From IMG/VR virus record IMGVR_UViG_3300006916_000139, positions 1 through 36,090 of that record: a DNA stretch of 36,090 bases, one strand, 5' to 3'. This DNA is from a virus. Each line of letters opens with the position of its first letter. The first letter of the stretch is position 1. Position numbers and translations under genes: made by a program. This document shows, piece by piece, positions 8,944-29,187 of this stretch. The notes under the pieces are model-generated. The model was not told the DNA's origin. It saw nothing but the letters and a program-made list of their open reading frames with translations, and did no database searches.

Positions 8944-9215
8944 TTCAGAAGTTTCTAAAGAAAAAAATTATAGAAACATCTGATGATTTACGTTTACAAA
9001 CTGAGTTGTTCGCATATAGAGTAGCCAAACATTATAACATATCATTAATGGAAGTGAATCAAATGGATATTAAAACATTTCAACAATCTTTATCTTGGGC
9101 TTTAGCGGTTGACGAAGAACAAGAAAAAGAAAGTGAAAGAACAAGAGTATCTTCACAAAATAACAATGAAACTATTAGCCTCGACTACGCCTTCTTGAAC
9201 GAGGAGGAGTTCTAA
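8940..9215 (+). CDS. Tail assembly chaperone, second frame (lambda gpT-like position)
   Basis: A 91-residue ORF overlapping the first chaperone by four bases (ATGA). It is helical and charged (KKKIIETSDDLRLQTELFAY, VAKHYNISLMEVNQMDIKTF) and ends in a short acidic stretch. In tailed viruses the second chaperone ORF is usually made only as a frameshift extension of the first. Here it lies in the -1 frame relative to that gene, with no stop between the G6 run and its ATG. No Shine-Dalgarno sequence precedes the ATG, so independent initiation looks weak, although stop-start coupling at ATGA cannot be excluded. The next gene starts inside its stop codon behind GAGGAGGAG. Confidence 0.6.
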   Translation: MIQKFLKKKIIETSDDLRLQTELFAYRVAKHYNISLMEVNQMDIKTFQQSLSWALAVDEEQEKESERTRVSSQNNNETISLDYAFLNEEEF

Positions 9216-9861: not shown

Positions 9862-11103
9862 ATGGTTGCAGCAGGTACTCCTATTCGTCTAATCCATGAA
9901 AATGGAGATTTTACTGAATTAGATGCTACCAGCATAACTCTTGAAACCATCAGAAAAGCAGGAAGTAGTTCCATACCTTTTGGTGGTGGAGGTAGATATA
10001 ATCTTGATTTGAATTTGCAAAATGCTGAGATTATGATAGATGGAATTTTTGTAGATGATAATATTGGAACAGTAGGTATAGGTGCTAGTGCAAAAATAAA
10101 TTGCGTTTTCAGTCACAGTCATAGTAATAGAGGTTTTGAAATAGCAAATGTGTGGATTGGCTCTACCAATTTAAATAATTTATTAGGCAGTGTAGTTAGT
10201 AGTTTTGATAGTGATGAAATAATAGCATCGAACAGGTGTCTCATCACGTTAAAAGATGCTTCCGGCAATCCAAAATATATACCTCTTGTCAGAGTGGCTG
10301 ACAATACTAGTGGTACTTTTGCAACAGTTGCAACTACCGATGATGATACTAATATAACAAATTTAGGCACTAAAAAATTTATTAAGATAATTACTAATGT
10401 GAGTGGTGGTAATAGTACAAGAGCAGCATCTTTAGCAACTGCGATAAAAACTTTGATTGATGCTGAATATTCTTCTTCTTTTAGCACTTCACTACTCGAT
10501 GAAACACGGTTTGGTGCAACTATAACAAATGGAATAGTAAAAATTACTCAAGCCACGGTTGGAAAAACTGGTAACAACAACACTCCTACTTTTACTACAA
10601 GAACAGGTACTACCTCGTCTACAAGAAAACCTCAAATGACATTATTTAGAGGTGGTATTGACGCTGAAAAAAAATCAGCAGGTGATAAAGTACAGGACTT
10701 GTACGGTATTGTAAACAACTCAAGAAGAACTGGTGGTTTGAGAGGAAATAAAGATTTCTTTTTAAGACCTACATTTAGCAGGAATAGAGAAAATGATGGT
10801 TTTATAAGACCGACAGATAATAGTGGAGATTACATAGTAGGTATACAGATACCATTTAATTCAATGGTAAATGTAGGCAATGAAACTTATGTTGCAAGAA
10901 ATTTTCACATGCCTACTGGTCGCAATAAATCACCGGAAGATAAAGGTGCTACAGCGGCTATGGCCGTTGGTACAGAATTTTCAGAAACAGATAAATCAAC
11001 AGGTATACAAGGTTTTGTTAAAAAACTTTCAATAGATTATGATGCTGGTGAAACTGTATATAGATTTAAAATGGTATTTTTACCAGTCGATTGGATGTTT
11101 TAA
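9862..11103 (+). CDS. Distal-tail-like protein with inserted domain
   Basis: A 413-residue protein. The N-terminal part (residues 1-70: IRLIHENGDFTELDATSITL, GGGGRYNLDLNLQNAEIMID, then GIFVDD) and the C-terminal end (VKKLSIDYDAGETVYRFKMV) look like the beta-sandwich halves of a distal tail or tail-tube-cap protein. Residues about 131-270 form an insertion including SLATAIKTLIDAEY and a Thr-rich strand region ending in TLFRGGID. This insertion is similar in pattern to the one in the connector-like protein. GGTGA lies five bases before the ATG. Its position after the tape-measure-like gene and before the giant tail protein supports a tail-tip assembly role. The exact family is not certain. Confidence 0.5.
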   Translation: MVAAGTPIRLIHENGDFTELDATSITLETIRKAGSSSIPFGGGGRYNLDLNLQNAEIMIDGIFVDDNIGTVGIGASAKINCVFSHSHSNRGFEIANVWIGSTNLNNLLGSVVSSFDSDEIIASNRCLITLKDASGNPKYIPLVRVADNTSGTFATVATTDDDTNITNLGTKKFIKIITNVSGGNSTRAASLATAIKTLIDAEYSSSFSTSLLDETRFGATITNGIVKITQATVGKTGNNNTPTFTTRTGTTSSTRKPQMTLFRGGIDAEKKSAGDKVQDLYGIVNNSRRTGGLRGNKDFFLRPTFSRNRENDGFIRPTDNSGDYIVGIQIPFNSMVNVGNETYVARNFHMPTGRNKSPEDKGATAAMAVGTEFSETDKSTGIQGFVKKLSIDYDAGETVYRFKMVFLPVDWMF

Positions 11104-11104
11104 G

Positions 11105-14100
11105 ATGCCTGTTATTTCTACTACTAATCATGCTTTCTTTTTTGATGGTGTAACTGATAGTATAATAATACCACAAGGTAATTCTAGTACAGATAATACT
11201 AGCAGAGGTTTATTTAATTCTAATCCTAATTCCGGTTCAGATAACATATTAAGTTTAACAGATGAAATTACTATAGAGGCTTGGGTTGTACCTGATTGTG
11301 GTGGAGTAATAGTAGAAAAAGAAAATTGTTTTAGTTTATCTTTAGGAAATGTAGACACACCCGGTCCTGCTGTTTTCAATCTAAATTTACTTGATACTGA
11401 AAAAAATGAAATAGAAACAATTCAATTAACTACTGCTTATTTGACTAGTAATGGGTATGACGGCACTATATTCCCACCTTCTACATTTACAGGTATACAC
11501 GACTCATACAATAGATTCAATAGCAGTTATGACGATGCCACAACATTGAATATTAATCATAGACCATTGATGCATGTTATTGCTACTTTCAACTCAAAGA
11601 AAGTTCAACTTTACATAAATGGTATATTAATGGCAGAACAAACTTTGTATAACGATAAATTTATTTTGTTAAAAAATAATAATCCTATATTTGTTGGTGG
11701 GAAAGGAGGGAAGTTTAGAGGGATAATGGAAGCAATACACCTTTGTACTTCTTTCACAAACGATATGGTGCAAGGTGAAGTACCTACTGTTAAAGATGAC
11801 ACGTTGTTATTATTTAGGTTTGAAGAACCAATTGCACCCATAGAATCTGTATATCCACTTAATCTTAGTGCATCGGCAGATTCTACAACAATATATCTTT
11901 CTACTACTAATGCAGCATCTTTGGCTACCGAACTTACAGGTTCGTCACAAACTTCAGGTACTATAGATTTCACAATATCTCCTTATAGTAGTGGTAATTA
12001 CACAATTACACAAAGCACGAAAACTGCTACTACTTCTCATTCAGTGCCACACGTTCCTTACAATTTATTGCTAAATCCCAATGGTATAAATTTAGATACT
12101 TTGAAGCCTAGTCAAAAACCTCCTGAAAGAGTCAGATTAGAAAGTATAAATATTGATACTGGAGCATTGACGATATCTAGTATTCATCTTGATTTTGCTA
12201 CTAACTCGAATGGAAAAAGAGGTCTTTTACATGCATATAGCGAATTGGATAAACCTAAATTTATTGTTTTAGGTGCTGATTTATTAATTGATAGTGGTAC
12301 TAGTCGACCTTATCAACCTCCTCACTTTTCTTCACAAGCCATAGATAGAACGGGGCAGATGGTGATAGATGAAAGTGATTTAGAAAATCACGGATTTGTA
12401 TTTTCTTCTAACATGGCAACTACTGTAAATGATACAGATAATCCTTTTGCTGCATTGTGGCCTACTACTTTAGATGAAGGGTATCAAATAGGACATAGCG
12501 GTAGACATATAAAAAATCACGTTAAAGGTCATACTTTTTTACGAATGTTACCAAGAGCAGAAAGAGAAATAATCGATTTAAAAGGTGGAGGTCAAGTTGA
12601 TTTAGTAGATGTGGTTTATGATAATACAAGAGAAGGTATTAAAGACCAAATTCCAGTAAATAGTGAAGTCGATGTTTATAGAGATGCAGGTACTTACGAT
12701 ATAAAAAATGTTATCAATTCTTCTACAGTTACTGCTGTTTACAATGATTTCCAAGATGTTACTGTATCAGATGGTAAAGAGAAGTTAATTGCTTTAGGTG
12801 GTACAACATTTGATTACAGACCTTTCATGTTAAAGGGTCAAGTACCTACATATGGTACTACACCTGATGCTAATACAAGAAAACATCATCTTCGCCCTAG
12901 TAAAGAAAGTAGAGTTGCCTTATTGCATATACCTTTGTTGAGAAGTACATACAATCATGCACCTTTTATTGAAGTCCATTATAATGCTATAGATTTAACA
13001 GGAGCATCAATGAACAGTTATGATGGTAGCACAAGAGTAAATACTGCTCAACCTTTACTAATGGTGGAAAAGACTGTACCTGCTTCTAATACTGCTTTTG
13101 TTAATGGCGATACTACAGCCTATCTATATGATATCATTGTTAGCCAAATAAGTTCTTTAGGTAGTTTAACACTTTATTCACCCGGAGGTTATGTTGAATT
13201 TGACAGTTTAGAAAGTGACAATGTCTTTGCTGTTAACGAGTTAGTTGGAGATAATAGTGAAGGATATGATGCTGATGATGATTTAGATGAAAGTTATACA
13301 CCTGCAAACTTTACTCCTTACGCACAAGGTTTGGTAGGTAATTCGCCGCCTAAAATTGTTTTAGAATCATCTAGTCAAAATGAATCTCATCCTTCTATTT
13401 TTAATAAAGTCTACTTTCCTAAAATTGAAACTAGCAAAAATTTGACAACATCTAGTAATATAACTAGAATAGAGCCTGAAGTAAATGTTGGAAGTCCTTC
13501 AGATGGTCAGTTTGATACAGGGGTATCAGGAGTATCTTCATCTATACACGAATTCTTTGATGTTATTGACAATATTATGGATGTAGACAATCCATCTGTA
13601 GCAGATATGGCATTAATTATACAACCTTGTGATAGGACTAGAACTAATCAATTAGCACATATCAAACATGCTTTAGATGATTCAAATGATGTTAACCAAA
13701 TGAGTTTGTTATATTTACTTAACAGGGCAGTGATAAGAGGTATAAAAGAAACTAATGATGAAGATGGTTCTTTTACCATCATAGAATGTGAAGGTATATT
13801 TACTCCTTTTGTATCACAATCTATAGACTTCAAAGGAAAAGGTAGTCCTGATTCTCATATTGTCAAAGAAATCGAACCTAATGCTCCTGTTGTCACAGTC
13901 ACTTTAGGTGGTCCGGGTCAAGGTGCAGTAGATACTAAACCTACTTACGATGAAAGTAAACTTAGTAGATTGCCATTTTCTTCAAGAAGGTCATATTCAG
14001 TAAGAGCAGATTACCTAAACACAACTAGTGGAGGTAGTATTACTGTTTCACCATTAAATAATCATTCTAATGATATGAAGAGTTGGGGTACATATGGATT

Positions 14101-17100
14101 TCCAAAAGTTGGTTACGTATATTTTGAAGATGGGAGTAAAGCACGTTATCAAAGTAAATCCGGTAACACTTTCACTTTTCAATCCGGTGCAGCAGACATA
14201 GGTTCTGGTTATTATGTAGCACACGATGGTACAGAATTTACTTTTATTAAACGTCTATTACGTTATATTGGTTATATTTCAAATTCAGATTCAACAATAC
14301 TTCAAATTAATAGAACACTATATAGTGAACCGGATTTTGGTGATGAGAGTTTAATTGATAATGGGTCAACTGTAAATGACCGTATGTTTCAAAAAATGAA
14401 TGGTGTTAATCATGATTACCAACTAGGTACTCAATTCGCTAGTACAAGAGCATTGGCAGAAATTCCGTTTTTCGATAATCAATTTTTTGGTAAACATGTA
14501 GGGCCAAATAATTCTTTCAAAATACATTTAGATGCTACTATGACTGCACATAGTTACAATCCTAGTCCGGTAGGAAAAAGGCCGATTGATTTACCTCCTG
14601 CTGATAGAGAAGTAGAATCTGCATATAGTTTTGGTGATAACAACCCATTTACATCTACTGTAATAGAAAGTTTATCTGGAAATAATTTAGTTGTTAAAGA
14701 TATTAATATATTTCCAACACCTGAAGTTGCTGTCAGTTATCAACAAATAACAAATGATACCACCAGTAGATATAGAAAGGTGTTTTTACCAAGTGGTGAT
14801 TGGGCTTTTTATTCAGCGATAACTGAAAACACTAAAACTCTTACACTAGTTTATCCGTCTGCTAATTTTAGACAAAACGCTATTGCTGGAACACCTGTAA
14901 CAGTTGGAGGGCCAAACACAAATGATGGTGCTATAGTACTAGCATCTGATAGTTTTACACCATCTTCGGAATATGAAGATAGAAGTAATACATATTATGA
15001 TTCTGCGAGCGTTAAGACACAAGGTGGTAATGTTGATTACGGTATGAGACAATATGTTAGTGCTGTAGAGTTTAAAGAAGGTCCAGAAACCAATCCACAC
15101 GCAGAAAAGATACAAACGAAAAGAGCATCTGCTGTTATTGGTAGTGTTAACGTAATTGGCACTACTGCTACAAGAGGAAGTATATTAGAAATTACATTGA
15201 GTGATGAAGACATGGAATTATTTCCAGACATAGGCATTGATAATTTATCAGATTTAGTTACAGGAACAGGAGAAACTTTTTACGAAGTTCAATGTGTTCA
15301 TCCATCAAGTAAAAAACTTTTAAAATTTCATTACTATGGCACATTAAATAAATATAACAATTTTGACATTACTGTAGGCAATAGTGGTTTTACTGTACAA
15401 GGTGATAATACTAGTATTATATTATATTATTATGAAGGTTTTACTACTGCACAGGCTTTGGCTGGTAACAATACTTATCCAGATTTTTCTGTGTTGGCAG
15501 GAGAAAAAATGACTCTTGTAGGAAAAAGAAGAAGAGTATTTTATGATAATTTTGTATCTACAAAAAGTTCTATTACAAAGAATATAGCATCTAATGTACA
15601 TGAAAAAATGGGTATATTTAACGAATTGGTTGCTAATGTTAAAATTGATACTAACATAGCAATAACTGCTTATTCTACTACCAATAAAACAGTAACTGTA
15701 AATCCAGTAGATGATGTAGGTTTATTTGATTTATCCGGTTTAAATGTAAGAAAAGGGGATGTTCTTTTTGCTTACAAAACATCATCAACTGAAGAAAGAT
15801 ATGCCACAATCGGTACAGTAGACAGTATTGCTGTTCATAGTGATAGTAGTGTAGTCATTACATTATCAGATAGTGATTTGAAAGCAATTGCTAATGTAAC
15901 TGATTACAAATTAGGTGTGGGTTGTGATGACTTTGATGATGTAGACGCTATATTAAATAAAACATGGGTTAATCCTTATGCTTCGGGCGGTCTAAGAAAT
16001 GGCGATACAATTTGGGGTAACATGTCGTATAACAACCCTCATGCAACTGAAGGTTTATTTTTCAAAAGTAGAGGTGTGTTAAATGAGGCACAAGTTTGGA
16101 CTGGTTTTAACAACGGTGAAGGTAATTTAAATTCAAATCCAAGAGATAGTATACCTTTAGAAAATTTCCTAATTGGTAACACTTGTTTAGAAACTGCAAG
16201 AAATTTTGCTCAACATGTAAATAAAACAATAGAAGAAAACTACAAATCACTAGGGTTAACAGCAGCAGAAGCACCTACTGTTGCTTATGTAGACCCTTAT
16301 CTGTCCAATGAAGGTCATGCAAGAGTGTTGTTATATGATGTAGCCCATGATAGAGAGTTTATTGCATTCCAAGATTTACATATGCAAGTGCAAAGTGAAT
16401 TACAAACAACACATATTGGTTGGAACAGATATGTAGTCAAAGATACTGATACAACTCGAACTGACTTACATTCCTATCTTGCTTCTTATAATGGTTCTTC
16501 ACCAAGTGCTTGGACAACACAAATTGATGTGACTAATGGTTATCCTTCACAAAATCGTTTTATCCGCTCTACACAACAATCTAAATTTATTGAAAGTGCT
16601 TATGCTCATGATTTACCAAATAAACAGGCTTACAATTTAACTAGTAATTACATATCTTCTACAAACACTACGCCAAAATACAATAGGTATTCAAGACTTT
16701 ATGGTAAAGGTCATGGTCATTTTGTACACACTGAATATTCATTACAAGGTGCTTCTTCAGGTTATACTTTTTCAAATAGTCTTCCTCCACAAACTACATC
16801 ACATGTCTCAATTTCCAAGATAGCAGACGACTATCATAAGTTATCTAGGAGAAAAGGTAACGATTTTATTAGTCAATTAATTAAAATAAGAAATGCAACC
16901 ACTGCTTGTTCTTTCCGTGACCCTTCGACATTTTTCGATACTCCTGATGGTACTCGTGTTATACCTGCATTTTTATCATTGAAAGGTATAAGAAGTGAAA
17001 CATTATCATTAGATAATCATGAAGAATCTAGGTTGCAACATTTACCACAATGGAAAGATATGGGTTTTGTGAGAAGATTATCCATAGATGCAGGTTCTAT

Positions 17101-20100
17101 AGGATTGAAAACCAGAAATAGTTTAGAGGCTGCCGAAGAGATAGTTCGTACAATTAATCAATATGCAGCATTGAATGCTAGGCTAAGTGACGGCAGTTCT
17201 GCTCATGACCCTTCTCCGTTTTGGGATACCAAACAAAGTTTTTCATCTGCCCAAAAAGGTACACATATGGGTTATTTGAGAGCACACATTGGTAGAGCCG
17301 TTACTGATAGAAACGGTGTTAATGGTTGGACTGTAGTTATACACAGTACAGTGCCGGGAGCAAGTGGTAGAAATTTCTGTGTTTGGTTAGATAATAGTCA
17401 AGGTCAAACTGAATATCAACCTGAATTTATTATTGGTCATGGTGGTAGGTGGCGTAACTTTTGGGCTTTACCTGAAGATATACAGGGTGAAAACATGCAT
17501 CCTGCACCTATGCCTCTTAACAAACATGGAAGACCGTTTGCTCCTATTACAACGTTACAACAATATTTAGAAGATGAGAATGAAGAAAATGTCATTGCTG
17601 TTACTGACTATGGAACAGATGAAGAACATACAATACAAAGTGTATCGGATGTGATTAGCGGTCAAATGCATAATACTTCAATACCTAAGTCTTTTGAATC
17701 TGAAGGTTCACCTTCTACTTTAATTCAAGGTTTGAGAACTGGTAAATCTGCTATCGCTAGAGTAAATTTTGGTGGTTTAGTAGCAACTGGAGTACCCGGT
17801 TTTACAGATGTTGCAGGAAAATGGGGATATGGTACATTCTCTACTGAAGATAAAGCAAGGTATGGAAACAATGTAGCAAGTAGTTATTCTTCACATGTAT
17901 CTAATGCTGAAAAAATTAAATTAGCGAAAGGAGAATCTAAAAGAGATTTATATGGTTTTAGATTTGAAGACCATTTGGGTAATAATTATGGTGTAAGATT
18001 TATTTATAGAGAAAGGGAAAATACTCGTGGTGGTAGAGAATCTTTTGTTAAAAAAACTGAGGATTTACCTTCAACAATTAGTCAAGAAATATGTGTATTC
18101 TTCAACGATAAGGATGTGAGCCAAGGTGGGTTTACTATTGGTAAAAACATGAGTGGTAGCGGTGATGCTACGGGTATGTTAGATACAGGAGATGCTACTA
18201 ATCCTGTTATTGAAACTTGGACAGGTAATCTATGGAATGCAGTCAATGCCCCTGAAGCAACTGTGCGTGTTAATGTAACTGAAAACACTAGCGAAAGTAA
18301 ATTACAAATCGTAGGATTAGAACCCTTTGATGCTAGTTTTACAACAGATGGTAAATTAAATTATCTTGGCTTCCCTAAAAATGGTGGTCTTTTACAAATA
18401 TCTGATATAGATGGTACTGGTAATGCAAATGTTGGTAAAGTCTTTCATTATACACATCAAGATGGTAGTTATTTTTATGGTATAACGCCAAGTGTTGCTG
18501 ACTGGAACATTACCAACGACCCTTATATTATTAGCCCTGTTTTAAATCGTACTACATTAGTTACTGATGAGTTGATGGCTGCTGTTACTGCTGCTGCAAT
18601 CAATGCTACAAGTCCGACAACTTTTGATTGTACTCATATGTATACTACAGACGGTAAGACTTTTGGAGAATGGGGTGTAAAACCTGATTCAATAGTTATT
18701 ACACCATTCAGCAATGATGGTAAATATCTATCTGAAAGTTTTTCTGCTTCAGTACACCCAGATTTAGGTATTCAAGCAGCACACTTAGAATTCGGAGAAC
18801 AAAAAAGCATCAGTATTGATTTAAATGTTGATGACGATAACCTCGAAGGTGTGATAAGTATAGCAACACCAAATCATATTGTTACAGATGCTAAGTTAGA
18901 TTTAGGTAAGAAAGTTGATTGTGGTTACATACCACGCACTTTACTTCAAATAGTTACAAAAAGTAAAGGTAGACATACAAACACACCAACTCCTGTATTT
19001 GTAAATTCAACTAATAATCCTGTAGATACAACAGCGTGGAAAAACAATCTTAATGGTGTTACTTTCACTAGAAGTTCTGGAGACCATATATTACCAAAAA
19101 TAGATAGCCCTCAATTTAGATTCGATTCAAATAGCAGTTGGGGTTCTCAAAGGTTAGATGGTGTGACTAATGCTGAACTATGGAATTTCTTGATACCATC
19201 AGATTCTTCTACAGCAAGCGGTATGAAAGCATTTGGTGAAAAGAAAAGAGCATATTTTGTTGATGATAGTGCTCCTTTCCTTGTTTGCTCTATGATTGTA
19301 CAAAGTCAACAAGGTGCTGATTCTGAAAAGAAATTAATCTTTAACACAAATACTGGAATAAATTTACCTTCTTCTGCACCGGGAAATAGTCAGATACTTA
19401 CTTTGTTTGGTGATGAAAGGGCTAGAGAATTTGCAGGTCTTAGGACTTTAGGTAGTGTATTTTCCGAACCAATTACATTCTTTAAAGGTGGTAAAAGTAG
19501 TCCTGACCATAGTGTTCCAGTATTCTTTGGTGGTGGATTTACAGGTGTTACACTAGATGTTAACGATGGTACTACAAATGATTATTCATCTTTCTATACC
19601 CATCCTTATGCTAGTGGTCCAACTGGTACTGCTGGTATTCAGAATGCAAATGAAATATCGACTAGTTTTGCTATGTTAGATTGTAATGCAATGTTTGCCT
19701 TCTTTCCCGGTACTCCATTGTGTAACCAACATCGTGGTAGTTTGATGCCACCTTTCTTCAATCAAGATAACATGTTAACACCTGACTTAGATAGAGGTGG
19801 TACTTCTTACACTAGAGGTGTAGTAAAAGCGAAGCCTATACCCTTAGTGATGCGTTTCGCTCATCCAACTGCTAGATATGAAGACCATCGTGATGGTACA
19901 GATAATAAGACTACATACATGATATTCGGTCCGGGTCAAGCATTCCCATTTACAGGTGTACATGATTCTACAGGTACAGAAAACGTTAACGAACCTTTTT
20001 CCGGTAGAATAATTACAAGTGGGAATACTTGGTCTCGTGTACCTAGATTTACTGGAAATAAACAAGCATTCCCTAATCATATCACAAATACCGATGGTGA

Positions 20101-23100
20101 TTATTTACCTGAAGATATAACATACTATAATGCTAATACAGCATATCATTGGAAAGCCATAGTAAACTGGGAGACACCTGCTGGTCATCCTCGTCGAACT
20201 ATGTATCAAAGACCTGCTCATGGTAGACATTATGGTCAAATTTACACAATAACAGATGGAAGTAGTACTGGTAGTCAAGTGAATGGTGTAATGCCATTAA
20301 GACACACTCCGGCAGTTGGTTTCGGTATTACAATGGGTGCTGATACAGTATTCCATATGGATGGGGGTTTACATGCTGGTGGCTCTTGGTTAGATAATCA
20401 ACTTACATTTAATCCTGTCCATCCAAAGAAAAATACAAGAATTGTAGGTGGTAATTCTTCAACTACTTGGACTAGAGATAATCAAATTCATCCTACAGCA
20501 TTTAGAGTTGCAGGACCACTCACTGGTAGAATTTTAGACTATAGTGGTTCAGAAACAGTATCATCGTCTGATAGTAAATTAGAATATATTGTTGTTGATG
20601 CTACAAGATGTCAGAATGGTGAAGAATTAGCCACTGTTTTAGGTGCGGCAATTAACGCATTTCCGGGTGCTGGAGCACTTAAATCACTCGGAGGTACACA
20701 TATGCCTTCAATGGGTAATGCTATGCGTCAAGATAGATATGGGTGGGTTGATACTGGTGCTATTGGAACGTATGATACTACTAATAAATTTGTAGAAAGT
20801 GCAACTACCACTAACAGAGATTTGTTAGAAAATTTACCTGCATCCGGTTGGTTGAAATCTGCAATCGATACAGTTGATAATGCTAATAGTAATACACAAA
20901 GTGCTTGTTATCACGCTAAAGAAATTTTAGTTGTTGATGCTGCTGCTGGTACATTCAAGGCAAGGTTTAGATTAGCACAGCATAAAAAAGCGGCTGCTAA
21001 TGGTGCATTTGATGTTAATACAAGTCCTGATGGTAATTTGTTTGTTTGGTCTAAAGCGGGTACTATACGTTTTAACAATGAAGATGATTCAACTCGTGAC
21101 CACATGACACAAGTTCACTTTTCAGGTATTGTAGACGCTGTTGATAGAACAAAACCAATTGGTGCTGTTGGATGGGCTGGTGAAAGATATTCTTACCTTA
21201 ACAGTTTGAAAGTTGGAACAGAAGGTTATGGTGCTGGTTTAGGAGCACATCATTCGATGTTATCTTTTGCTCCATACGGCACTGCCAGTACAATGATTAC
21301 AACATTAAGTCAATTACCTCACACTTATCCTTTATTTGATACTCCTGAAAGTGTACCTCCTATCGATGGAGTTGTTGCTGATTTAGATAACTATTTAGAT
21401 AGTTTCTATTCTGGTGGTTTTAAGATTGCAGGTGCATCAACTAGAAGTTATAGTTTAATTCAAACTGATAGTGCTACTACTCATCATAACTATTCTAATA
21501 CCCCAATCAACTTTAACAAAACGAATGGTCAAACATCTTCTAGTGAAATATTACCTGACACTCTTTCACAACCTGTTGGCTTATATGGTAGTGCATTCTT
21601 AGTAGTAAGTTATGAATCTGAAAGTGCGTTAATTGCCAAATATGATAGAGATGGTATTACTGCTACTGGTGATTGGTTGCAAATACATGGTGTATCGTCA
21701 GATGCTATAACATATGCAGGTACTACTCTTTGGGATGAAAGATTTCACGGTCAAGACAGATTCATTGCACCAGCCAATGCAGGACCAAACGTAGAAGCGT
21801 TAATTGTACATGATATGGTAGTACCTAAATCTACAGCATTTGAATCAGATGTTACTTGGGTCGATACTCTATTCCCTACTGGTGCTACTAAACACATGCA
21901 TGGTTCTGTATCTAGTGATTTAGAATTAGAAAATGCAACTCCTGATAGGGCTAAAACTGGCGATTTAATATATGATTTAGATTATTCAGCAGGTTCTTAT
22001 AATTTAGAGCCTGAAACTGCTGGACCTGTTGAAAGTATAACAGTGAGTGCTACAGGTAGTGGGTATAGCACCGGCTTTGCTGCTACTACTGGTGGTAATG
22101 GTTCAGGTTGTAGAGTTAATGTAGTTAGTGTAAGTACAGGTGCTCTCAATAGTGTAACTCTTGCTAGTGCTGGTACTGGATATGAGGTTGGTGATGTTCT
22201 CACAGTTGCTGGAGGTTCAGGCGGTACAGTTACAGTCGGTAGAATAAATAATTTAGTTGAAAGAAATGTAGCATCACACCATCATACTACTAGTTATCAG
22301 GCAAATAAATCTGCTACCTATTGGATGGGCGATGTAAATGCATATCAAATCTATGAAAATTCTGCTATCAAGAATTTTAACACGGAAAATGTAGTATGGA
22401 AGAGAATGGATGGTGGTAACTTATCATTACCTGCAATTAATGCTCGTGGTTTAGGTGCTGTGCCTTTTATGACTAGAGTTGCAAGTAACACAGCATACAC
22501 TACGGGCGAGAAGATATTTGGTAATGTTAGATTTAGTTTTGAAACTACAAATAGTGCAATGTTGCCAATTTTACAGGCTCAAGAATTAAGTCATCCACAA
22601 CTTGCTGCTAGATATCCTTTGAAAGTAGAAAATGTTTTACAAATACCAAATGAAGAAATACAGTTTGATAGCATAAATGTATTAGATGATTCAGGTCAAG
22701 TTCATAAAATCGAAGGTGGTAGTCCTTTCGGTACTATAATTAGAGGTTACAGATTAATTGAAGATAGAACTACTAAAGGAACAGCACCTAGTTTGGCTAA
22801 TAGTGGTAAACCATCTAATCTCAAAATAACATTACCCAATCCTGATTCTATACCCGGTAATATAGTTGTCAGAAGTGGTTTTGACCCTATACAAGCGTAT
22901 CAAAATGAAACTTTTGGTTCTGGTGGTATGTTACATGCAGACTTAGGTGTATCAGCCCCTTCCTCTGATAACAAACTAGAACGCTTCTTTGATAACACAG
23001 TTAAAGGTCCAAGACAAGCACCAAATTATGAAAATCATAACTGGGAACACATTGACCCTCTAACTTACAAAAGTACATTAGACGGTTGGAAGAATGAATC

Positions 23101-26100
23101 TTTGCAAACTTCATATGAATTACACGATAAGACACTTTTCTTCCATGTAACTAAAATGGGTCATTCTCATACACATCGATATCCTACAGTGTATACTCAT
23201 ACTTCCGGTATAGAAACTGATACAGTATCCGTATCTAGTTGGAATGCAACAACTAACGCTTTAGTCATAGATGCTACACTGAATACTAACGTATTTAATG
23301 CAGGTTTTGGTACTAAAGAGGTAAAAGATAGTAGAAAGTTCTTAAGAGTGTATAATCCAACTACTGATGAAGGTGTTGTTTGTTCTTACACTTCACAAGG
23401 TAGCACAACACTTACCGTAGTAGGTGATGTAGACTTTGCTACGTTTATGGCTGGACAGACTGTAACTGACCTCAAAGTAGTTCCTTCTTACTATGTACCT
23501 GCTGGTAGTGCTAGATTCTTTGCTGCTCGTAGAATGCGTGACCATGCTGAAGTAAGCGGTAGTTCTCCTGATATGGCACATACTCAGTATACTGGTAATG
23601 AAACGGTAGCCTATAACAGATATAGTAAACCAGTACTCACGCCAATGCCTTATCCTAGAATGGGGCATCACTTTGTTACTCCAACAATGCCTATGCTGCC
23701 CGGTCACTGGTCACATCCAGCGTATCAAAGTCTTTACAAGAAACATCGTGCTCAACAAAGATTGCAGAAAAAATTCTTAGATAGTGCAACAATACAAGAT
23801 GTTTACGACACTGAAGAAAAGAAAACTAACACTACGTTAGTTGAAGATTTTATTAATCCCTTAGAATCAGAAATAAACTTTAGTGGAATAAATGCTGCCC
23901 CTAGTGGTCCTAGTGACATTCATGGAGGTGCATTCACTCTAATGTTTGAAACTGCTATCAAATACGATGGTTACGGTGTTTTAGCCTCTACAGGGTTAGG
24001 CGGAGATATCAATAAAGTAGGTGGACACACTGTTGTTTTAGAGGCAGCAGCATACTATACGTTAGGATATCATTTTCCTGACCCTGCTGAAGTAGGTGCA
24101 TATCAAATTATTATACAACCTAATCTACATGTCAACCAAATACGTGGTTACAGTGCTAACACACAATCTGTTGGTAAAGGTATGACATATCAACAAGTCA
24201 ATACAGTAGTCGGTATTGCTGACCATAGTTCACAAACAGGGGCTATAAGTTTGATTTTAGAAAAAGCCACTGATGCAGATGTAAGGGGTTGTGAAATTTT
24301 TATTAACGAAACAATGTTAGATGTAAGCCCGGATTATGGTAGTCAATTTACAAATATACCTCCTTTATTACTTTACAATCCATTTGGTGTTAACTTAAAT
24401 GAAACTCCTTCATTTACTAGACAAGGATTTCCTTATTCACCTATGTTTTCTGACGCTACACCTGCATATACTTTGAATATTCCATGGTGGACTATACTTT
24501 TTGATAATATAGATTATAATTCTAGTAATTATATTACAGATTTAGATGATTATAGTAATTATATAGGTATATCTCAATATGCACCTCATAATTATTATCA
24601 ATTTAGTAAAAGTACTTATGGGAGTATAGGAAATCAATTAACAATACAAGGATATCCTTCAATATATCCAAATATATATTCTCGTACTTTACAAAATATA
24701 TCTTTAATACCTCAATGTACTGTAATATCTTTTTCACAAGGTGATGGTACTATAACAGTAGATGATGCAAGCGTTTTACCTAGAACACCTCTTTTCGGTC
24801 AAAAATTAATATATCAGGCTGAAAATGGTGCTACATATATCAGAGAATATATTCGACGTTCTGGTGATGCTCGTGATGAAATTAATTTACCTAATACAAT
24901 ACATCTTAATGTTAATAATGATGCGTTTTGGGATAATTTATTTGCCGGTGCTGTTATTTCATTAACTACAACAGGCTCTCTTAACGACCCGTATACTCAT
25001 TTAATAGATAAGAAAAAGAATGTTTTTGCTCACTTTTTGCCGGATTTGATTAATGGTAGTCAGGATACTACATCTCTACATCTACCCGATGCTTTCCTTT
25101 GTAAATCACATCCAAACTTAGGTAGACCTTACACATATTTTTCTGATGATGATTCTAGGGCTTGGAATGGTAATGCTGTAGATGCTGCTATGTATAATTC
25201 TCTACCTGAACATTTTGAAACATTCCATTATTTCGCTGCATCCTATTCTATGAGTTATGGACCATTTTACATGGATATTAAGTCTCCCAACACTACTAAA
25301 GATGGGTCTGTAACGTATAATAGCGATAATACCGATGTTGGTGATGATGGTGGCAATATCACTTATCATAGATTATGGCCGTGTGGTAGTCGTGGAGGTC
25401 CACAAGCAAGTAGTTTAGATGAATACATGATTGCTGTTTTATCATGGCACTATCCCGGCGAACATGGTAGTTTAGATTTCAATATTAGCGATAAAGGGTA
25501 TGATAGTAGCAGTAGTGGTAGTTATACTGACAGTTCAACAAAAGGTCTTAGATTAGGTTGGGAGGGAGGTACAGGTGCTAGAAGTAGTACTGAAAGACGA
25601 AGTTACGGTTATAGAATAGCGTTAAGACAGGCTTTAAACAAACCTAGATGGGGAATTCATAGTCTTAGATACTTTTCAGAGATTGCATCTGGGTCATCTG
25701 CAAGTGGTAATGCAGTGTTAACAACTGATTATCACTCCGGTCCACTTGTACAAGAATTCAAGTATGGTGTAATGAATGATGCACCTACTTGGATTTACGG
25801 TGGTGGAGGCTCAGATACCTCTAATGTGGGTGCTTTAGGGCAAACCTATGTAGGTGTAATGGAAACTGCTACTAACTTTACAGGTATGTTAGGAATAGAT
25901 AAACCTGAGAATCTTGTTCGCTATAGTGATGGTCGCAGAATGACAAGACCATACGGTGCTCCTGTGCGTACTATACGCAATCCTGCTGGTACTCGTAGGG
26001 ATTGGTGGGGTGATGGCGAAGGAAAGGGCATAGAACGCCTCTCTAAAGCCTCTGAGTACTATCTGATAGATTGGTGGGCAAACGAGCGTGGAGAGGACGT

Positions 26101-27658
26101 TAGACGTGCTCCTGTGCGTGGATTTGGTATTAGACCAGCGTGGGATTGTGGTGATGCCTACGAATATGATAGAACTAACAACAGAAGTCCGTATGATAGA
26201 GTTTGGAACAATGGTAAACCTATCTTTAACATGAAGGGTATAGTTAACCTTAGTACTGGTGCGGTTAGTATTAGTTCAGGTTACACTATTCCAAGATTTG
26301 GCGGTACTGATAATGATGCTAATCTAAACGGTAATGACAATGATTTAGTTGATGTATTTGCACCTACACATGCTATGAGGATTGGTGATATGGGTAATGG
26401 TAGAGGGGTAAGGTATCCTACTCACTTCAATGAAGACATTCTTACAGCACTTTCAGCACCTGTAGAAAAGACTGGTATGGTACTAAGTACACATACAGCA
26501 GAACCTCTATTCGGTAAAGGGTTGTTACGCCCCCGTAACGCTGTACTGCAAGCCGATGAACTACCTAGAGGAATCAGTGATACGCTAGATATTTCAGACG
26601 ATGGATTGCTAAAACCGGAGGCTACAGTAAGTCCAAGGACAGAAAAAATTGTAGGAACATCCGTTCATGTGGATGCAATATCAAGAAGTAGCCCTAGAAT
26701 CGGTGTAGATGGCGATATTTTAAGTGGTGTTGAAACGAATCATATTGTTATTAATACAGAGGCTCACAGTCTACATACAGACAGGAATATTGGTCAAAGA
26801 ATCGTGCTTGAAGGGGCTTTACAGCCCGATATTGGGAATGGTAACACTTTATCCTTAACTGATTTAAATTTAACAACTATATCTTTTGCACGTCAAAGTC
26901 GTGGTGCTCCTATAAATTCTGCATTAAGATTCACTCATACACAACCATTTAGACCGTATGGTGGCGTTTATATTATGGAAAGTAAAGTACATGCAGGATT
27001 GTTTGATGATACAGGATGGGGTAGAAATAATTTAGCAGGTGTAGAAAAAACTACTAACCCATATCAAAATAGTACTTTAAAATTAAATACAAAACGTAAT
27101 AACCAAAATGATAAAAGTGTTAAATTTATGTTAAAAAGTATAAAACTATTAGATAATAAACATATACAATTATTTAGATTAAATAATGATTTACATAGTA
27201 GTTCTCCACAATATGCATTAAATTATTTATATTCTACAAGTGCTGGAAAATATGGTTTATTTAATTACGAAGTACCTACTACAAGTGCAAATACACCTTA
27301 TGCAACTGGTATAGTACCAAATACTAATGGTCCATATCATCCGGTATTTTTGTTTGATAGTACAGGTTCTAATTTTGAAATACCCGATTGTTTTGGTCCT
27401 AAATTATTAGGTTCTAGTGTAAGTGGTTTTGATAACACTTCTTTAAGTGAAGCGGTAACAAGACTTGTTATTAGTGAAAATACTTTACAACACCATCGTT
27501 CAGATGCTGCTAGAAGGAGGCAAGAATTAGATACTGATGATGCTGTGACTGGTTTAGATTTCACAGTAAAACCTAGATTTAGTCAGTCTTTACACCCTAA
27601 AGGACATAAAGGAGATGTAACTTTTGGTACAAGTGACCACAGTGGAGATGGTGCTTAA
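11105..27658 (+). CDS. Giant tail-tip / adhesin protein of about 5,517 residues with N-terminal LamG lectin domain
   Basis: A single uninterrupted frame of 5,517 codons (near 600 kDa). Residues about 8-240 form a LamG/concanavalin-A-like lectin domain. A module at about 3640-3715 has paired Gly-Tyr turns (GSGYSTG, GTGYEVGD). The rest is rich in Asn, Ser, Thr, Tyr, Gly and Trp, looks beta-rich, and has few cysteines, no signal peptide and no membrane segment. ATG 11105, one base after the previous stop, is chosen over the upstream in-frame ATG 11039, which lies inside the distal-tail gene. No GGTGA precedes either, so coupled translation is likely. The flanking distal-tail and hub-like genes imply a tail-tip or host-binding role. 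Base composition changes sharply near the 3' end. Most of the protein is unlike anything I recognise. Confidence 0.7.
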   Translation: MPVISTTNHAFFFDGVTDSIIIPQGNSSTDNTSRGLFNSNPNSGSDNILSLTDEITIEAWVVPDCGGVIVEKENCFSLSLGNVDTPGPAVFNLNLLDTEKNEIETIQLTTAYLTSNGYDGTIFPPSTFTGIHDSYNRFNSSYDDATTLNINHRPLMHVIATFNSKKVQLYINGILMAEQTLYNDKFILLKNNNPIFVGGKGGKFRGIMEAIHLCTSFTNDMVQGEVPTVKDDTLLLFRFEEPIAPIESVYPLNLSASADSTTIYLSTTNAASLATELTGSSQTSGTIDFTISPYSSGNYTITQSTKTATTSHSVPHVPYNLLLNPNGINLDTLKPSQKPPERVRLESINIDTGALTISSIHLDFATNSNGKRGLLHAYSELDKPKFIVLGADLLIDSGTSRPYQPPHFSSQAIDRTGQMVIDESDLENHGFVFSSNMATTVNDTDNPFAALWPTTLDEGYQIGHSGRHIKNHVKGHTFLRMLPRAEREIIDLKGGGQVDLVDVVYDNTREGIKDQIPVNSEVDVYRDAGTYDIKNVINSSTVTAVYNDFQDVTVSDGKEKLIALGGTTFDYRPFMLKGQVPTYGTTPDANTRKHHLRPSKESRVALLHIPLLRSTYNHAPFIEVHYNAIDLTGASMNSYDGSTRVNTAQPLLMVEKTVPASNTAFVNGDTTAYLYDIIVSQISSLGSLTLYSPGGYVEFDSLESDNVFAVNELVGDNSEGYDADDDLDESYTPANFTPYAQGLVGNSPPKIVLESSSQNESHPSIFNKVYFPKIETSKNLTTSSNITRIEPEVNVGSPSDGQFDTGVSGVSSSIHEFFDVIDNIMDVDNPSVADMALIIQPCDRTRTNQLAHIKHALDDSNDVNQMSLLYLLNRAVIRGIKETNDEDGSFTIIECEGIFTPFVSQSIDFKGKGSPDSHIVKEIEPNAPVVTVTLGGPGQGAVDTKPTYDESKLSRLPFSSRRSYSVRADYLNTTSGGSITVSPLNNHSNDMKSWGTYGFPKVGYVYFEDGSKARYQSKSGNTFTFQSGAADIGSGYYVAHDGTEFTFIKRLLRYIGYISNSDSTILQINRTLYSEPDFGDESLIDNGSTVNDRMFQKMNGVNHDYQLGTQFASTRALAEIPFFDNQFFGKHVGPNNSFKIHLDATMTAHSYNPSPVGKRPIDLPPADREVESAYSFGDNNPFTSTVIESLSGNNLVVKDINIFPTPEVAVSYQQITNDTTSRYRKVFLPSGDWAFYSAITENTKTLTLVYPSANFRQNAIAGTPVTVGGPNTNDGAIVLASDSFTPSSEYEDRSNTYYDSASVKTQGGNVDYGMRQYVSAVEFKEGPETNPHAEKIQTKRASAVIGSVNVIGTTATRGSILEITLSDEDMELFPDIGIDNLSDLVTGTGETFYEVQCVHPSSKKLLKFHYYGTLNKYNNFDITVGNSGFTVQGDNTSIILYYYEGFTTAQALAGNNTYPDFSVLAGEKMTLVGKRRRVFYDNFVSTKSSITKNIASNVHEKMGIFNELVANVKIDTNIAITAYSTTNKTVTVNPVDDVGLFDLSGLNVRKGDVLFAYKTSSTEERYATIGTVDSIAVHSDSSVVITLSDSDLKAIANVTDYKLGVGCDDFDDVDAILNKTWVNPYASGGLRNGDTIWGNMSYNNPHATEGLFFKSRGVLNEAQVWTGFNNGEGNLNSNPRDSIPLENFLIGNTCLETARNFAQHVNKTIEENYKSLGLTAAEAPTVAYVDPYLSNEGHARVLLYDVAHDREFIAFQDLHMQVQSELQTTHIGWNRYVVKDTDTTRTDLHSYLASYNGSSPSAWTTQIDVTNGYPSQNRFIRSTQQSKFIESAYAHDLPNKQAYNLTSNYISSTNTTPKYNRYSRLYGKGHGHFVHTEYSLQGASSGYTFSNSLPPQTTSHVSISKIADDYHKLSRRKGNDFISQLIKIRNATTACSFRDPSTFFDTPDGTRVIPAFLSLKGIRSETLSLDNHEESRLQHLPQWKDMGFVRRLSIDAGSIGLKTRNSLEAAEEIVRTINQYAALNARLSDGSSAHDPSPFWDTKQSFSSAQKGTHMGYLRAHIGRAVTDRNGVNGWTVVIHSTVPGASGRNFCVWLDNSQGQTEYQPEFIIGHGGRWRNFWALPEDIQGENMHPAPMPLNKHGRPFAPITTLQQYLEDENEENVIAVTDYGTDEEHTIQSVSDVISGQMHNTSIPKSFESEGSPSTLIQGLRTGKSAIARVNFGGLVATGVPGFTDVAGKWGYGTFSTEDKARYGNNVASSYSSHVSNAEKIKLAKGESKRDLYGFRFEDHLGNNYGVRFIYRERENTRGGRESFVKKTEDLPSTISQEICVFFNDKDVSQGGFTIGKNMSGSGDATGMLDTGDATNPVIETWTGNLWNAVNAPEATVRVNVTENTSESKLQIVGLEPFDASFTTDGKLNYLGFPKNGGLLQISDIDGTGNANVGKVFHYTHQDGSYFYGITPSVADWNITNDPYIISPVLNRTTLVTDELMAAVTAAAINATSPTTFDCTHMYTTDGKTFGEWGVKPDSIVITPFSNDGKYLSESFSASVHPDLGIQAAHLEFGEQKSISIDLNVDDDNLEGVISIATPNHIVTDAKLDLGKKVDCGYIPRTLLQIVTKSKGRHTNTPTPVFVNSTNNPVDTTAWKNNLNGVTFTRSSGDHILPKIDSPQFRFDSNSSWGSQRLDGVTNAELWNFLIPSDSSTASGMKAFGEKKRAYFVDDSAPFLVCSMIVQSQQGADSEKKLIFNTNTGINLPSSAPGNSQILTLFGDERAREFAGLRTLGSVFSEPITFFKGGKSSPDHSVPVFFGGGFTGVTLDVNDGTTNDYSSFYTHPYASGPTGTAGIQNANEISTSFAMLDCNAMFAFFPGTPLCNQHRGSLMPPFFNQDNMLTPDLDRGGTSYTRGVVKAKPIPLVMRFAHPTARYEDHRDGTDNKTTYMIFGPGQAFPFTGVHDSTGTENVNEPFSGRIITSGNTWSRVPRFTGNKQAFPNHITNTDGDYLPEDITYYNANTAYHWKAIVNWETPAGHPRRTMYQRPAHGRHYGQIYTITDGSSTGSQVNGVMPLRHTPAVGFGITMGADTVFHMDGGLHAGGSWLDNQLTFNPVHPKKNTRIVGGNSSTTWTRDNQIHPTAFRVAGPLTGRILDYSGSETVSSSDSKLEYIVVDATRCQNGEELATVLGAAINAFPGAGALKSLGGTHMPSMGNAMRQDRYGWVDTGAIGTYDTTNKFVESATTTNRDLLENLPASGWLKSAIDTVDNANSNTQSACYHAKEILVVDAAAGTFKARFRLAQHKKAAANGAFDVNTSPDGNLFVWSKAGTIRFNNEDDSTRDHMTQVHFSGIVDAVDRTKPIGAVGWAGERYSYLNSLKVGTEGYGAGLGAHHSMLSFAPYGTASTMITTLSQLPHTYPLFDTPESVPPIDGVVADLDNYLDSFYSGGFKIAGASTRSYSLIQTDSATTHHNYSNTPINFNKTNGQTSSSEILPDTLSQPVGLYGSAFLVVSYESESALIAKYDRDGITATGDWLQIHGVSSDAITYAGTTLWDERFHGQDRFIAPANAGPNVEALIVHDMVVPKSTAFESDVTWVDTLFPTGATKHMHGSVSSDLELENATPDRAKTGDLIYDLDYSAGSYNLEPETAGPVESITVSATGSGYSTGFAATTGGNGSGCRVNVVSVSTGALNSVTLASAGTGYEVGDVLTVAGGSGGTVTVGRINNLVERNVASHHHTTSYQANKSATYWMGDVNAYQIYENSAIKNFNTENVVWKRMDGGNLSLPAINARGLGAVPFMTRVASNTAYTTGEKIFGNVRFSFETTNSAMLPILQAQELSHPQLAARYPLKVENVLQIPNEEIQFDSINVLDDSGQVHKIEGGSPFGTIIRGYRLIEDRTTKGTAPSLANSGKPSNLKITLPNPDSIPGNIVVRSGFDPIQAYQNETFGSGGMLHADLGVSAPSSDNKLERFFDNTVKGPRQAPNYENHNWEHIDPLTYKSTLDGWKNESLQTSYELHDKTLFFHVTKMGHSHTHRYPTVYTHTSGIETDTVSVSSWNATTNALVIDATLNTNVFNAGFGTKEVKDSRKFLRVYNPTTDEGVVCSYTSQGSTTLTVVGDVDFATFMAGQTVTDLKVVPSYYVPAGSARFFAARRMRDHAEVSGSSPDMAHTQYTGNETVAYNRYSKPVLTPMPYPRMGHHFVTPTMPMLPGHWSHPAYQSLYKKHRAQQRLQKKFLDSATIQDVYDTEEKKTNTTLVEDFINPLESEINFSGINAAPSGPSDIHGGAFTLMFETAIKYDGYGVLASTGLGGDINKVGGHTVVLEAAAYYTLGYHFPDPAEVGAYQIIIQPNLHVNQIRGYSANTQSVGKGMTYQQVNTVVGIADHSSQTGAISLILEKATDADVRGCEIFINETMLDVSPDYGSQFTNIPPLLLYNPFGVNLNETPSFTRQGFPYSPMFSDATPAYTLNIPWWTILFDNIDYNSSNYITDLDDYSNYIGISQYAPHNYYQFSKSTYGSIGNQLTIQGYPSIYPNIYSRTLQNISLIPQCTVISFSQGDGTITVDDASVLPRTPLFGQKLIYQAENGATYIREYIRRSGDARDEINLPNTIHLNVNNDAFWDNLFAGAVISLTTTGSLNDPYTHLIDKKKNVFAHFLPDLINGSQDTTSLHLPDAFLCKSHPNLGRPYTYFSDDDSRAWNGNAVDAAMYNSLPEHFETFHYFAASYSMSYGPFYMDIKSPNTTKDGSVTYNSDNTDVGDDGGNITYHRLWPCGSRGGPQASSLDEYMIAVLSWHYPGEHGSLDFNISDKGYDSSSSGSYTDSSTKGLRLGWEGGTGARSSTERRSYGYRIALRQALNKPRWGIHSLRYFSEIASGSSASGNAVLTTDYHSGPLVQEFKYGVMNDAPTWIYGGGGSDTSNVGALGQTYVGVMETATNFTGMLGIDKPENLVRYSDGRRMTRPYGAPVRTIRNPAGTRRDWWGDGEGKGIERLSKASEYYLIDWWANERGEDVRRAPVRGFGIRPAWDCGDAYEYDRTNNRSPYDRVWNNGKPIFNMKGIVNLSTGAVSISSGYTIPRFGGTDNDANLNGNDNDLVDVFAPTHAMRIGDMGNGRGVRYPTHFNEDILTALSAPVEKTGMVLSTHTAEPLFGKGLLRPRNAVLQADELPRGISDTLDISDDGLLKPEATVSPRTEKIVGTSVHVDAISRSSPRIGVDGDILSGVETNHIVINTEAHSLHTDRNIGQRIVLEGALQPDIGNGNTLSLTDLNLTTISFARQSRGAPINSALRFTHTQPFRPYGGVYIMESKVHAGLFDDTGWGRNNLAGVEKTTNPYQNSTLKLNTKRNNQNDKSVKFMLKSIKLLDNKHIQLFRLNNDLHSSSPQYALNYLYSTSAGKYGLFNYEVPTTSANTPYATGIVPNTNGPYHPVFLFDSTGSNFEIPDCFGPKLLGSSVSGFDNTSLSEAVTRLVISENTLQHHRSDAARRRQELDTDDAVTGLDFTVKPRFSQSLHPKGHKGDVTFGTSDHSGDGA
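11126..11835 (+). other. LamG / concanavalin-A-like lectin domain in the giant protein
   Basis: Residues about 8-240 of the giant protein show the hallmarks of the LamG_3 jelly roll in order: HAFFFDGVTDSIIIP at the start, ITIEAWV at about 54, HVIATFNSKKVQLYINGILM at about 157, and FVGGKGGKFRGIMEAIHL at about 196. The closing strand is LLLFRFEE. Such domains bind glycans, so a role in attaching to host surface sugars is likely by family but not shown here. Confidence 0.75.
24440..24770 (+). other. AT-rich, Tyr/Asn/Ser-rich insert-like block within the giant gene
   Basis: The coding DNA here uses almost only A/T-ending codons with many TAT, AAT and ATA. The protein (about residues 4445-4555) is dense in Tyr, Asn, Ser and Ile, for example YNSSNYITDLDDYSNYIGIS. 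Flanking DNA is less AT-rich and uses mixed codons. The frame is kept throughout. This pattern suggests a separately acquired or fast-changing segment, possibly exposed on the virion. Confidence 0.45.
25900..26820 (+). other. GC-richer, CGN-arginine block within the giant gene
   Basis: Arginine is often coded by CGT or CGC here, whereas AGA dominates in most of the gene. I count nine CGN and five AGR codons in the first roughly 80 codons. The protein (about residues 4932-5240) is Arg-, Trp-, Gly- and Asp-rich, with RRDWWGDGEGKGIERLSKAS and YYLIDWWANERGED. It may be a conserved module of different origin from its surroundings. Confidence 0.45.
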
Positions 27659-29187
27659 TGGGTTCAAAAAGTGGCCGTATAGAATCTACTAAGGGTAGAT
27701 GGGAAGAAGAATGTGATACTCTAATGGCAGATGTAAGAAAGCCTGTTTTTGTTGATAATGCTGTACATTTTGCTAAAGTTGATGTTCACAGTTTAGATGG
27801 TAAACATAAGGTTACAATAGAATCTGAAAATAAAAATGAGTACAAACTTGCTACTGAGAAAACCTATCAATACGTAGAATCTGGTGATTCTTTGTTAATA
27901 ACGCATTTTGAAACACCCGGCCATTCCTTAAAAAGCGATATTTGGACACCGGAGGGTAGAAATGTTACAACTAAAATTGTATTTTCTTCTTTAAATCCTC
28001 AAAAAAGATTGACTACTAGTACACAGAGTAGTACTTCTAATGGTCTGTTATTAGAACTTCGCAATATGAGGAAAAGAACATTAACAGATTTAGGGTTTAG
28101 CCCTACTCCGATTTATCATGATGCTTTCATTAGACAGGGAATAAGAGATGGGGTGATTGACCCTCTGACGTTAAATCCACCTTTATCTTTACATTTTGGT
28201 AGAACGGTAGATATAGGTTTTAGAACTACAGATTTAGTATTAAAAATGACATCTCAAATGGAAGATTCTGCTACATCTGTGGGTATTGGTGAAACTATGA
28301 ATTTGACTAGTGCTGGTACAAATAGAAGAAAACACAGTAATGTATTTCTTGCTCATGATTTCAATTCTATGAATGCTATAACTGCTCTAAATTTAATTTC
28401 AAAATACGATAATAGGTCATTAAATATGAATAAATACGGTAATTTACAATATATTCCAGCATCTCATCAAAAAGTACCTTCTTTGTTGTTAGAAGAGAAA
28501 AGGCGTGGTACAGAGAATACAAATCCTCTGAATGATAGAGAGAATAGAGTAACTATACAAGGTGTTCCTTCTACTTTGAATGATGATGTAATAATTACTA
28601 TGGAAGATGCTGAAAGTCAACAAAGTAAGTTTAATGTGAATGTTAGAGAACAAATTGCTCCTACAATCGATGTTACTGTAAAAACATCAGAAGCCGCTAG
28701 AAAAGTAGCACGAAAGGTGTTACAGACAAATAAACTTGCGAAGGGTGCTATTGATAGTAGAGGACATCCCGATGCTTGGAAGTATAGACCCGGTGATTTG
28801 GTTTCTTACAAGGGTGAAATTTTATCTATTATCGATGCAAAACACGATACACGAAAAAATCTGAGTGATTTTAAGTTTGTTTCTTCAACAAGTGGTTTGA
28901 GTGGTGTATTACATATGTTATCTCAAAATTCAGCATTGAATGTGGCAACTCGTATGCCTGAAAAAACTACTCAAATAAGAGATTACAATTTTTCATTCTT
29001 CAATTCTTTAGAAGTAAAAGTAATACCATCCATACTTGTGCGGTCAGTAGCAGAGGAGAAAATTTTGTTAGGTCAACACGCCGGAAGGAGAAGTATTGGA
29101 GGTGCTGCTACAATAAGTGGTAGTACTACTGTTTCTAGTATTGGATTAAACAAAGGAGTCTATATTGATATAGAAGGTGATTATTAA
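27658..29187 (+). CDS. Baseplate / tail hub-like protein
   Basis: A 509-residue protein. Residues about 260-400 resemble the gp27/gpD-type hub: a 'NKYGNLQYIP' turn, ENRVTIQGVPSTLNDDVIIT at about 293, the acidic MEDAESQ, the helix SEAARKVARKVLQTNKLAKG at about 341, and WKYRPGDLVSYKGEILSIID at about 373. The N-terminal 250 residues and the Ser/Gly-rich end are not recognised. In tailed viruses the hub caps the tail tube and carries the spike or fibres. The gene starts inside the stop of the giant gene (TAATG), so translation is probably coupled and the two products are likely partners at the tail tip. The call rests on motif pattern only. Confidence 0.55.
   Translation: MGSKSGRIESTKGRWEEECDTLMADVRKPVFVDNAVHFAKVDVHSLDGKHKVTIESENKNEYKLATEKTYQYVESGDSLLITHFETPGHSLKSDIWTPEGRNVTTKIVFSSLNPQKRLTTSTQSSTSNGLLLELRNMRKRTLTDLGFSPTPIYHDAFIRQGIRDGVIDPLTLNPPLSLHFGRTVDIGFRTTDLVLKMTSQMEDSATSVGIGETMNLTSAGTNRRKHSNVFLAHDFNSMNAITALNLISKYDNRSLNMNKYGNLQYIPASHQKVPSLLLEEKRRGTENTNPLNDRENRVTIQGVPSTLNDDVIITMEDAESQQSKFNVNVREQIAPTIDVTVKTSEAARKVARKVLQTNKLAKGAIDSRGHPDAWKYRPGDLVSYKGEILSIIDAKHDTRKNLSDFKFVSSTSGLSGVLHMLSQNSALNVATRMPEKTTQIRDYNFSFFNSLEVKVIPSILVRSVAEEKILLGQHAGRRSIGGAATISGSTTVSSIGLNKGVYIDIEGDY

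Follow-up and report, generated by a model that had tools for sequence, protein, structure and literature searches.

A 5,517-residue protein in the tail module of a probable magrovirus as a candidate beta-rich scaffold of the tail tip

The window, i.e., the whole 36,090-nucleotide stretch of metagenomic virus DNA analyzed here, carries a capsid gene and a tail module in which a single gene of 5,517 codons (the giant) stands between a gene in distal-tail position and a hub-like gene. Genes were assigned as follows by comparison with the Druskaviridae haloviruses HCTV-5, HVTV-1 and HCTV-1, by PHROG matches and by position.

282-1469, + strand: HK97-fold major capsid protein (MCP); 32-34% identity over 99% to the annotated MCPs of HCTV-5, HVTV-1 and HCTV-1
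3716-5281, + strand: head-tail connector-like protein; HCTV-5 gp124 profile match, E 1.8e-7
5606-6055, + strand: tail-terminator-like protein (by synteny); HCTV-5 gp126 profile match, E 2.4e-7
6067-8064, + strand: tail tube protein; HCTV-5 gp127 tail tube profile match, E 1.8e-8
8581-8943, + strand: tail assembly chaperone candidate; weak but syntenic HCTV-5 gp128 profile match, E 6e-4
9215-9856, + strand: tape-measure candidate, 213 aa; weak but syntenic HCTV-5 gp130 match, E 5e-4; least conserved of the set
9862-11103, + strand: distal-tail-position protein, 413 aa; by position, without a profile match
11105-27658, + strand: giant, putative tail-tip gene, 5,517 aa; one frame conserved across many contigs, dN/dS 0.137
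27658-29187, + strand: hub-like protein, 509 aa; weak HCTV-5 gp132 match, best of 25, E 7e-4 to 2e-3
29187-29531, + strand: small tail-module protein, 114 aa; by operon position; 70% identity over 66 aa to G003
29533-32157, + strand: fibre or virion structural protein; PHROG 6002 virion structural protein, E 5e-26
32167-33813, + strand: fibre-like protein, 548 aa; by position and low conservation
33823-36090, + strand: tail fibre running off the window; PHROG 9942/18345 tail fibre; homologue in contig G002 of 2,211 aa

Against HCTV-5 profiles, the tail tube was identified at E 2e-8 and two connector/terminator proteins at E 2e-7. The chaperone, tape measure and hub matched weakly but in syntenic positions, and synteny with the haloviruses was seen on both flanks of the giant. 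The genes of the tail module appear to be arranged as in one operon because their ends abut or share a base; the ATG of the hub-like gene, for instance, shares one base with the stop codon of the giant. A reading made earlier from the letters and open frames (the sequence-only reading) had placed the giant between distal-tail-like and hub-like genes. Its place in the tail module was borne out, while the name 'distal-tail' reflects position and the name 'hub' a weak profile match; PDB profile searches with these two genes returned nothing significant.

At the tape-measure position, four relatives carry ORFs of 234-334 aa. As a general rule, tape measures set about 0.15 nm of tail per residue, so the candidates of 213-334 aa predict a tail of 30-50 nm. 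The 213-aa candidate of the window is itself very short, and would mean an unusually short tail of the siphovirus type. Two ORFs at the chaperone position overlap by ATGA (8940-8943), where the haloviruses have an annotated joined two-piece product.

The giant reads from the ATG at 11105 to the stop at 27658 in one unbroken frame, and the computed protein has a mass of 603,369 Da and a pI of 5.4, in agreement with the uninterrupted 5,517-codon frame of about 600 kDa, starting at 11105, that had been described from the sequence. The mechanical open frame is longer (11039-27658, 5,539 codons), but the start at 11105 was preferred because the residue encoded there is the first residue of full-length homologues and because only one base separates this ATG from the stop codon of the gene before it. 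When the same DNA was shuffled 200 times, the longest stop-free run averaged 100 codons and never exceeded 173. GC content in each full 500-codon block was 0.14-0.21 at codon position 3 against 0.40-0.49 at positions 1 and 2. Since the shuffles top out so low and the codon-position bias is uniform over the gene, a chance origin of the frame was excluded. Comparison with the nearest relative, which is 97% identical, gave a dN/dS of 0.137 overall and below 0.3 in each block. The giant gene is real and under purifying selection over its whole length.

The window is very probably a piece of a magrovirus, i.e., a tailed dsDNA virus that infects Marine Group II (Poseidoniales) archaea, a context that the sequence-only reading did not recognize. 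This assignment is made because the MCP resembles those of Druskaviridae and because a near-identical sister contig, G002 (MCP 96%, tube 90% and hub-like protein 96% identical), carries a thermosome gene, above one NCBIfam cut-off, together with relatives of family B polymerase (PolB), the RFC-type clamp loader and the XPF-type nuclease. The archaeal replisome and group II chaperonin that mark magroviruses were found on G002 and not in the window itself. G002 also encodes relatives of terminase, portal and HK97-type prohead protease, and its replication genes lie on the strand opposite to the morphogenesis block. Related contigs reach 96-116 kb, which fits the magrovirus genome of 90-110 kb with two opposed gene blocks, and the genes and layout of G002 match published magrovirus genomes (PMC12999244, PMC10768690).

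A search for homologous long ORFs in related contigs had been proposed from the sequence. In IMG/VR, many independent contigs hold a full-length homologue of the giant as a single ORF (5,387-6,359 aa, 48-97% identity). Five contigs were recovered when the first 1,000 residues served as the query; four held full-length single ORFs of 5,522-5,659 aa with identities of 97, 56, 57 and 50%, and the fifth stops inside the gene. Profile scans with three separate regions gave 292, 201 and 260 confirmed loci, and in the third-region scan complete ORFs of 5,387-5,613 aa were present at 25 of 79 loci, nearly all of the others being open merely through the end of the stretch or contig. The length of the gene was nearly constant among complete ORFs, and the longest complete homologous ORF read had 6,359 aa. 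Because related contigs carry homologous long ORFs, close homologues are not all encoded as separate shorter genes.

The giant was present in 39 of the 50 contigs of at least 30 kb that bear this MCP; the remaining 11 stop too early, about 2-8 kb past the MCP gene, as the place of the giant is about 9.6 kb downstream. Among contigs selected by PolB, its C-terminal profile was matched in 23 of 28. The five non-matching contigs comprise G002 and G055, which hold the N-terminal part of the giant beside the contig end, G068 and G070, which end short of its site, and G061, a more divergent virus whose contig ends in the gene at the tape-measure position. Across the sampled clade, no MCP- or PolB-chosen contig that reaches the site was found to lack the gene. 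The frame was broken in only two contigs, 3300030110_002888 (L196/L134), with a small deletion and frameshift near residue 3,830, and 3300037847_003599 (L341), where the gene is split over three frames; each break may be a sequence error or a genuine variant. Outside these contigs, a tblastn search of 50,697 phage records with the first 3,000 aa as query gave no match, and a scan of GTDB genomes with a conserved region of the giant gave no relative. Since the gene is unbroken and occurs in every close relative readable through the site, it looks, from these genomes, like a core part of the infection machine of magroviruses.

Three parts of the protein could be delimited.

11105-11839, + strand: N-terminal LamG/ConA-like domain, about aa 1-245; Pfam Laminin_G_3 at aa 146-208, AlphaFold2 and Foldseek; domain end judged from the model
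22013-22225, + strand: Gly-Tyr module, about aa 3637-3707, a lineage-specific insert; PHROG 26741/438/460
24707-24976, + strand: small beta-barrel, about aa 4535-4624; the C-terminal model is confident mainly here, pLDDT about 54-87

The Laminin_G_3 match (E 2e-7; 31.5 bits against a gathering score of 27.6), together with the jelly-roll fold match, places the N-terminal domain among LamG domains, and Pfam detected it in 28 of 36 homologues. AlphaFold2 modelled aa 1-1175, with the 36 homologues, as mostly beta (pLDDT 67.7, pTM 0.66). Amongst the best 50 Foldseek matches of this model in the PDB, LamG/ConA-like folds or multidomain proteins containing one dominated; against viral models, a 52% identical entry and many LamG proteins, one of HVTV-1, were retrieved. 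As judged from the model, these matches reflect a common lectin fold only. The 52% identical entry, A0A1B1IU10 (a viral protein in BFVD/UniProt), was compared as a library piece and aligned over the whole modelled N-terminal part; by its sequence it is a deposited member of the giant family, carried without name or function in the tables. The model of aa 4340-5517 was poor (pLDDT 40.8) with a non-significant Foldseek list, and its small beta-barrel resembled a tail-tip chain of phage Chi, though not significantly.

The Gly-Tyr module occurs in about 3 of 65 aligned rows. We regard it as an insert and not part of the core, because it is absent from nearly all homologues and repeats like it recur in the giant protein of cyanophage S-ShM2. 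The LamG domain and the one Gly-Tyr module named by the sequence-only reading are thus both real, and the rest of the chain proved as unassignable as it had stated: Pfam and PHROGs gave no other convincing matches, PDB profile searches with three 26-row alignments gave nothing significant, and profile self-comparison gave no internal repeats. The fold comparison it had proposed yielded the LamG fold for aa 1-1175 and a poor model for aa 4340-5517. The predicted beta-rich nature of the giant refers to the modelled N-terminal 1,175 of 5,517 aa. Some domains may have a non-structural role, since most of the chain matches nothing known.

Identity to two distant relatives was 51 and 45% for the giant and 55 and 46% for the tail tube. 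In the same two relatives the distal-tail-position protein reached 32 and 30%, the hub-like protein 37 and 34%, the tape-measure candidate 24%, and the fibre genes 27-37% over part of their length. By amino acid identity, then, the giant ranks with the tail tube in conservation and above all the other genes compared here. Because of this ranking, a core scaffold fits better than a host-range adhesin. The proposal of a 'new type of adhesin' accordingly lost ground, as conservation over the whole chain is the opposite of what a fast-changing receptor binder would show, and the LamG domain alone hints at binding. The giant could still serve mainly as an adhesin for the receptor, i.e., as a long spike or fibre with host range set by its LamG domain and surface loops. 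Such a role would suit the lectin fold at the N-terminus, the S/T/G/N-rich composition and the less conserved blocks around aa 1350-1600 and 2650-2750, but the conservation of the giant exceeds that of the hub, distal-tail and fibre genes, and several separate fibre-like genes follow downstream. We consider this role unlikely.

HCTV-5 and HVTV-1 have capsid, tube and connector genes related to those of the window and in the same order. Their tip region (gp131-gp137) consists of several ordinary-sized genes (about 150-525 aa), one of them a separate LamG gene, and holds no counterpart of the giant chain; in profile comparison, no halovirus tail-tip protein matched any part of the giant above a probability of 2%. 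The suggestion that the giant 'replaces several separate baseplate genes' therefore found no halovirus profile match in its favor, and genes for a hub-like protein and fibres are still present downstream of the giant; such a replacement is possible. The halovirus tip genes and the HK97-type prohead protease encoded by the virus would also accommodate a polyprotein, translated as one chain and cut into several ordinary tail-tip proteins. We judge this quite improbable, given that no part of the giant matches a halovirus tip protein and that an unsystematic look at the chain showed neither an internal protease nor a repeated site.

A tape-measure or ejection protein resembling that of Thermus phage P23-45, and giving a very long tail, was also considered. 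Giant tape measures are known in siphoviruses; that of P23-45 has 5,002 residues, is encoded in the tail operon of a siphovirus and bears an RNA polymerase at its N-terminus (PMC10770324). Additionally, a very long-tailed particle has been tentatively tied to magroviruses (PMC7318539). The giant is similar in length to the P23-45 protein, but by description the two are set apart, as the modelled part of the giant is beta-rich and a separate tape-measure candidate accompanies it. It does not combine the long, mostly helical chain and the slot after the chaperone that mark tape measures: that slot is taken by the syntenic 213-aa candidate (9215-9856), the N-terminal part, as modelled, consists mostly of beta structure and includes a lectin domain, unlike a long helical tape measure, and the giant contains only nine Gly/Pro-free stretches of at least 30 residues. 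Its gene length is, moreover, nearly constant. This explanation is highly improbable.

Hardly more can be said for an enzyme packaged in the virion and injected into the cell, such as a giant RNA polymerase. N4-like phages have giant virion polymerases (PMC12633501), but the giant matched no polymerase family in Pfam or PHROGs, lacks the DxDGD motif, and sits among tail genes with a lectin domain. That the frame is an artefact joining several genes has a negligible chance: the sequence is that of a contig from a metagenome, and several relatives have contigs that break off within the gene, but many independently assembled contigs repeat this one frame, which shows codon periodicity and purifying selection all along, and these single-ORF homologues and the dN/dS of 0.14 argue against an assembly fusion. 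Tape measure, polymerase and assembly artefact were all set aside as unlikely.

Altogether, we favor, with a probability of about 0.6, that the giant is a beta-rich structural scaffold of the magrovirus tail tip with an N-terminal lectin, present in several copies, rather than mainly a variable adhesin. The tail-tip scaffold is supported by the single conserved frame, purifying selection, tail synteny, the LamG domain, the tube-like conservation and the beta-rich N-terminus, and also by known systems, because HVTV-1 has a LamG protein in its tail region and S-ShM2 a virion structural protein of similar size beside baseplate genes. Several giant chains (a trimer or hexamer of 1.8-3.6 MDa) would surround a short non-contractile tail at its distal end, and would hold the hub and the fast-evolving fibres encoded downstream. 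Displayed LamG domains could bind host-surface glycans or other virion proteins, while host-range specificity would probably reside mainly in the downstream fibres. Copy number and virion position are predictions made here from genes alone. More tentatively, and with odds well below even, one chain of about 600 kDa in few copies might build most of a megadalton tip on an unusually short tube (about 30-50 nm), an arrangement unlike any characterized tailed virus.

The sequence-only reading had set the size of the giant against the 500-1,500 residues usual for hub or spike genes at this place. S-ShM2, a cultured Synechococcus myovirus, encodes the 6,198-codon 'virion structural protein' SShM2_093 adjoining the baseplate wedge gene gp7, and because of this protein and the 5,002-residue tape measure of P23-45, size alone is not new. 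SShM2_093 and the giant have in common a Gly-Tyr module and a LamG-type fold, but SShM2_093 belongs to a contractile-tailed bacterial virus and shows no similarity to the giant along the rest of the chain; the giant falls outside the S-ShM2-type cyanophage giants, matching them in the Gly-Tyr module only. No description of the gene was found in the magrovirus literature covered, which was incomplete and did not include key papers. The family is apparently a lineage-wide tail-tip protein that is deposited as sequence and undescribed.

The giant gene takes up about 15% of the genome, ranks above hub and fibres in conservation and has a mostly unassignable fold, and the protein is probably central to the entry of magroviruses into archaeal cells. 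Marine Group II archaea rank with the most abundant cells in surface oceans, and to our knowledge their viruses are known from metagenomes only. The giant family is a clear target for metaproteomics and structure work. A magrovirus survey listed Laminin_G_3 as an auxiliary metabolic gene in four groups (PMC10160649). That entry may be the LamG domain at 11105-11839 of the giant, and LamG calls counted as auxiliary metabolic genes in magroviruses may belong to a tail gene.

A few minor observations were made along the window and its relatives. The tail fibre at 33823-36090 is about 40% identical to its G002 homologue; since neighboring genes are 85-100% identical, this fibre is a candidate for setting host range. 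A 182-aa ORF (8073-8621), which lies between the genes for tube and chaperone, contains a SAP-like motif (IRELQDVCRERGLTIRGTKAQVVLRLK), recognized by eye. G061 (L463, L464) represents a more divergent magrovirus with a distant MCP and a thermosome-like gene, and it carries an ORF (L464:2828-3679) that by eye resembles HMG-CoA lyase, a gene described for Aoguangviridae.
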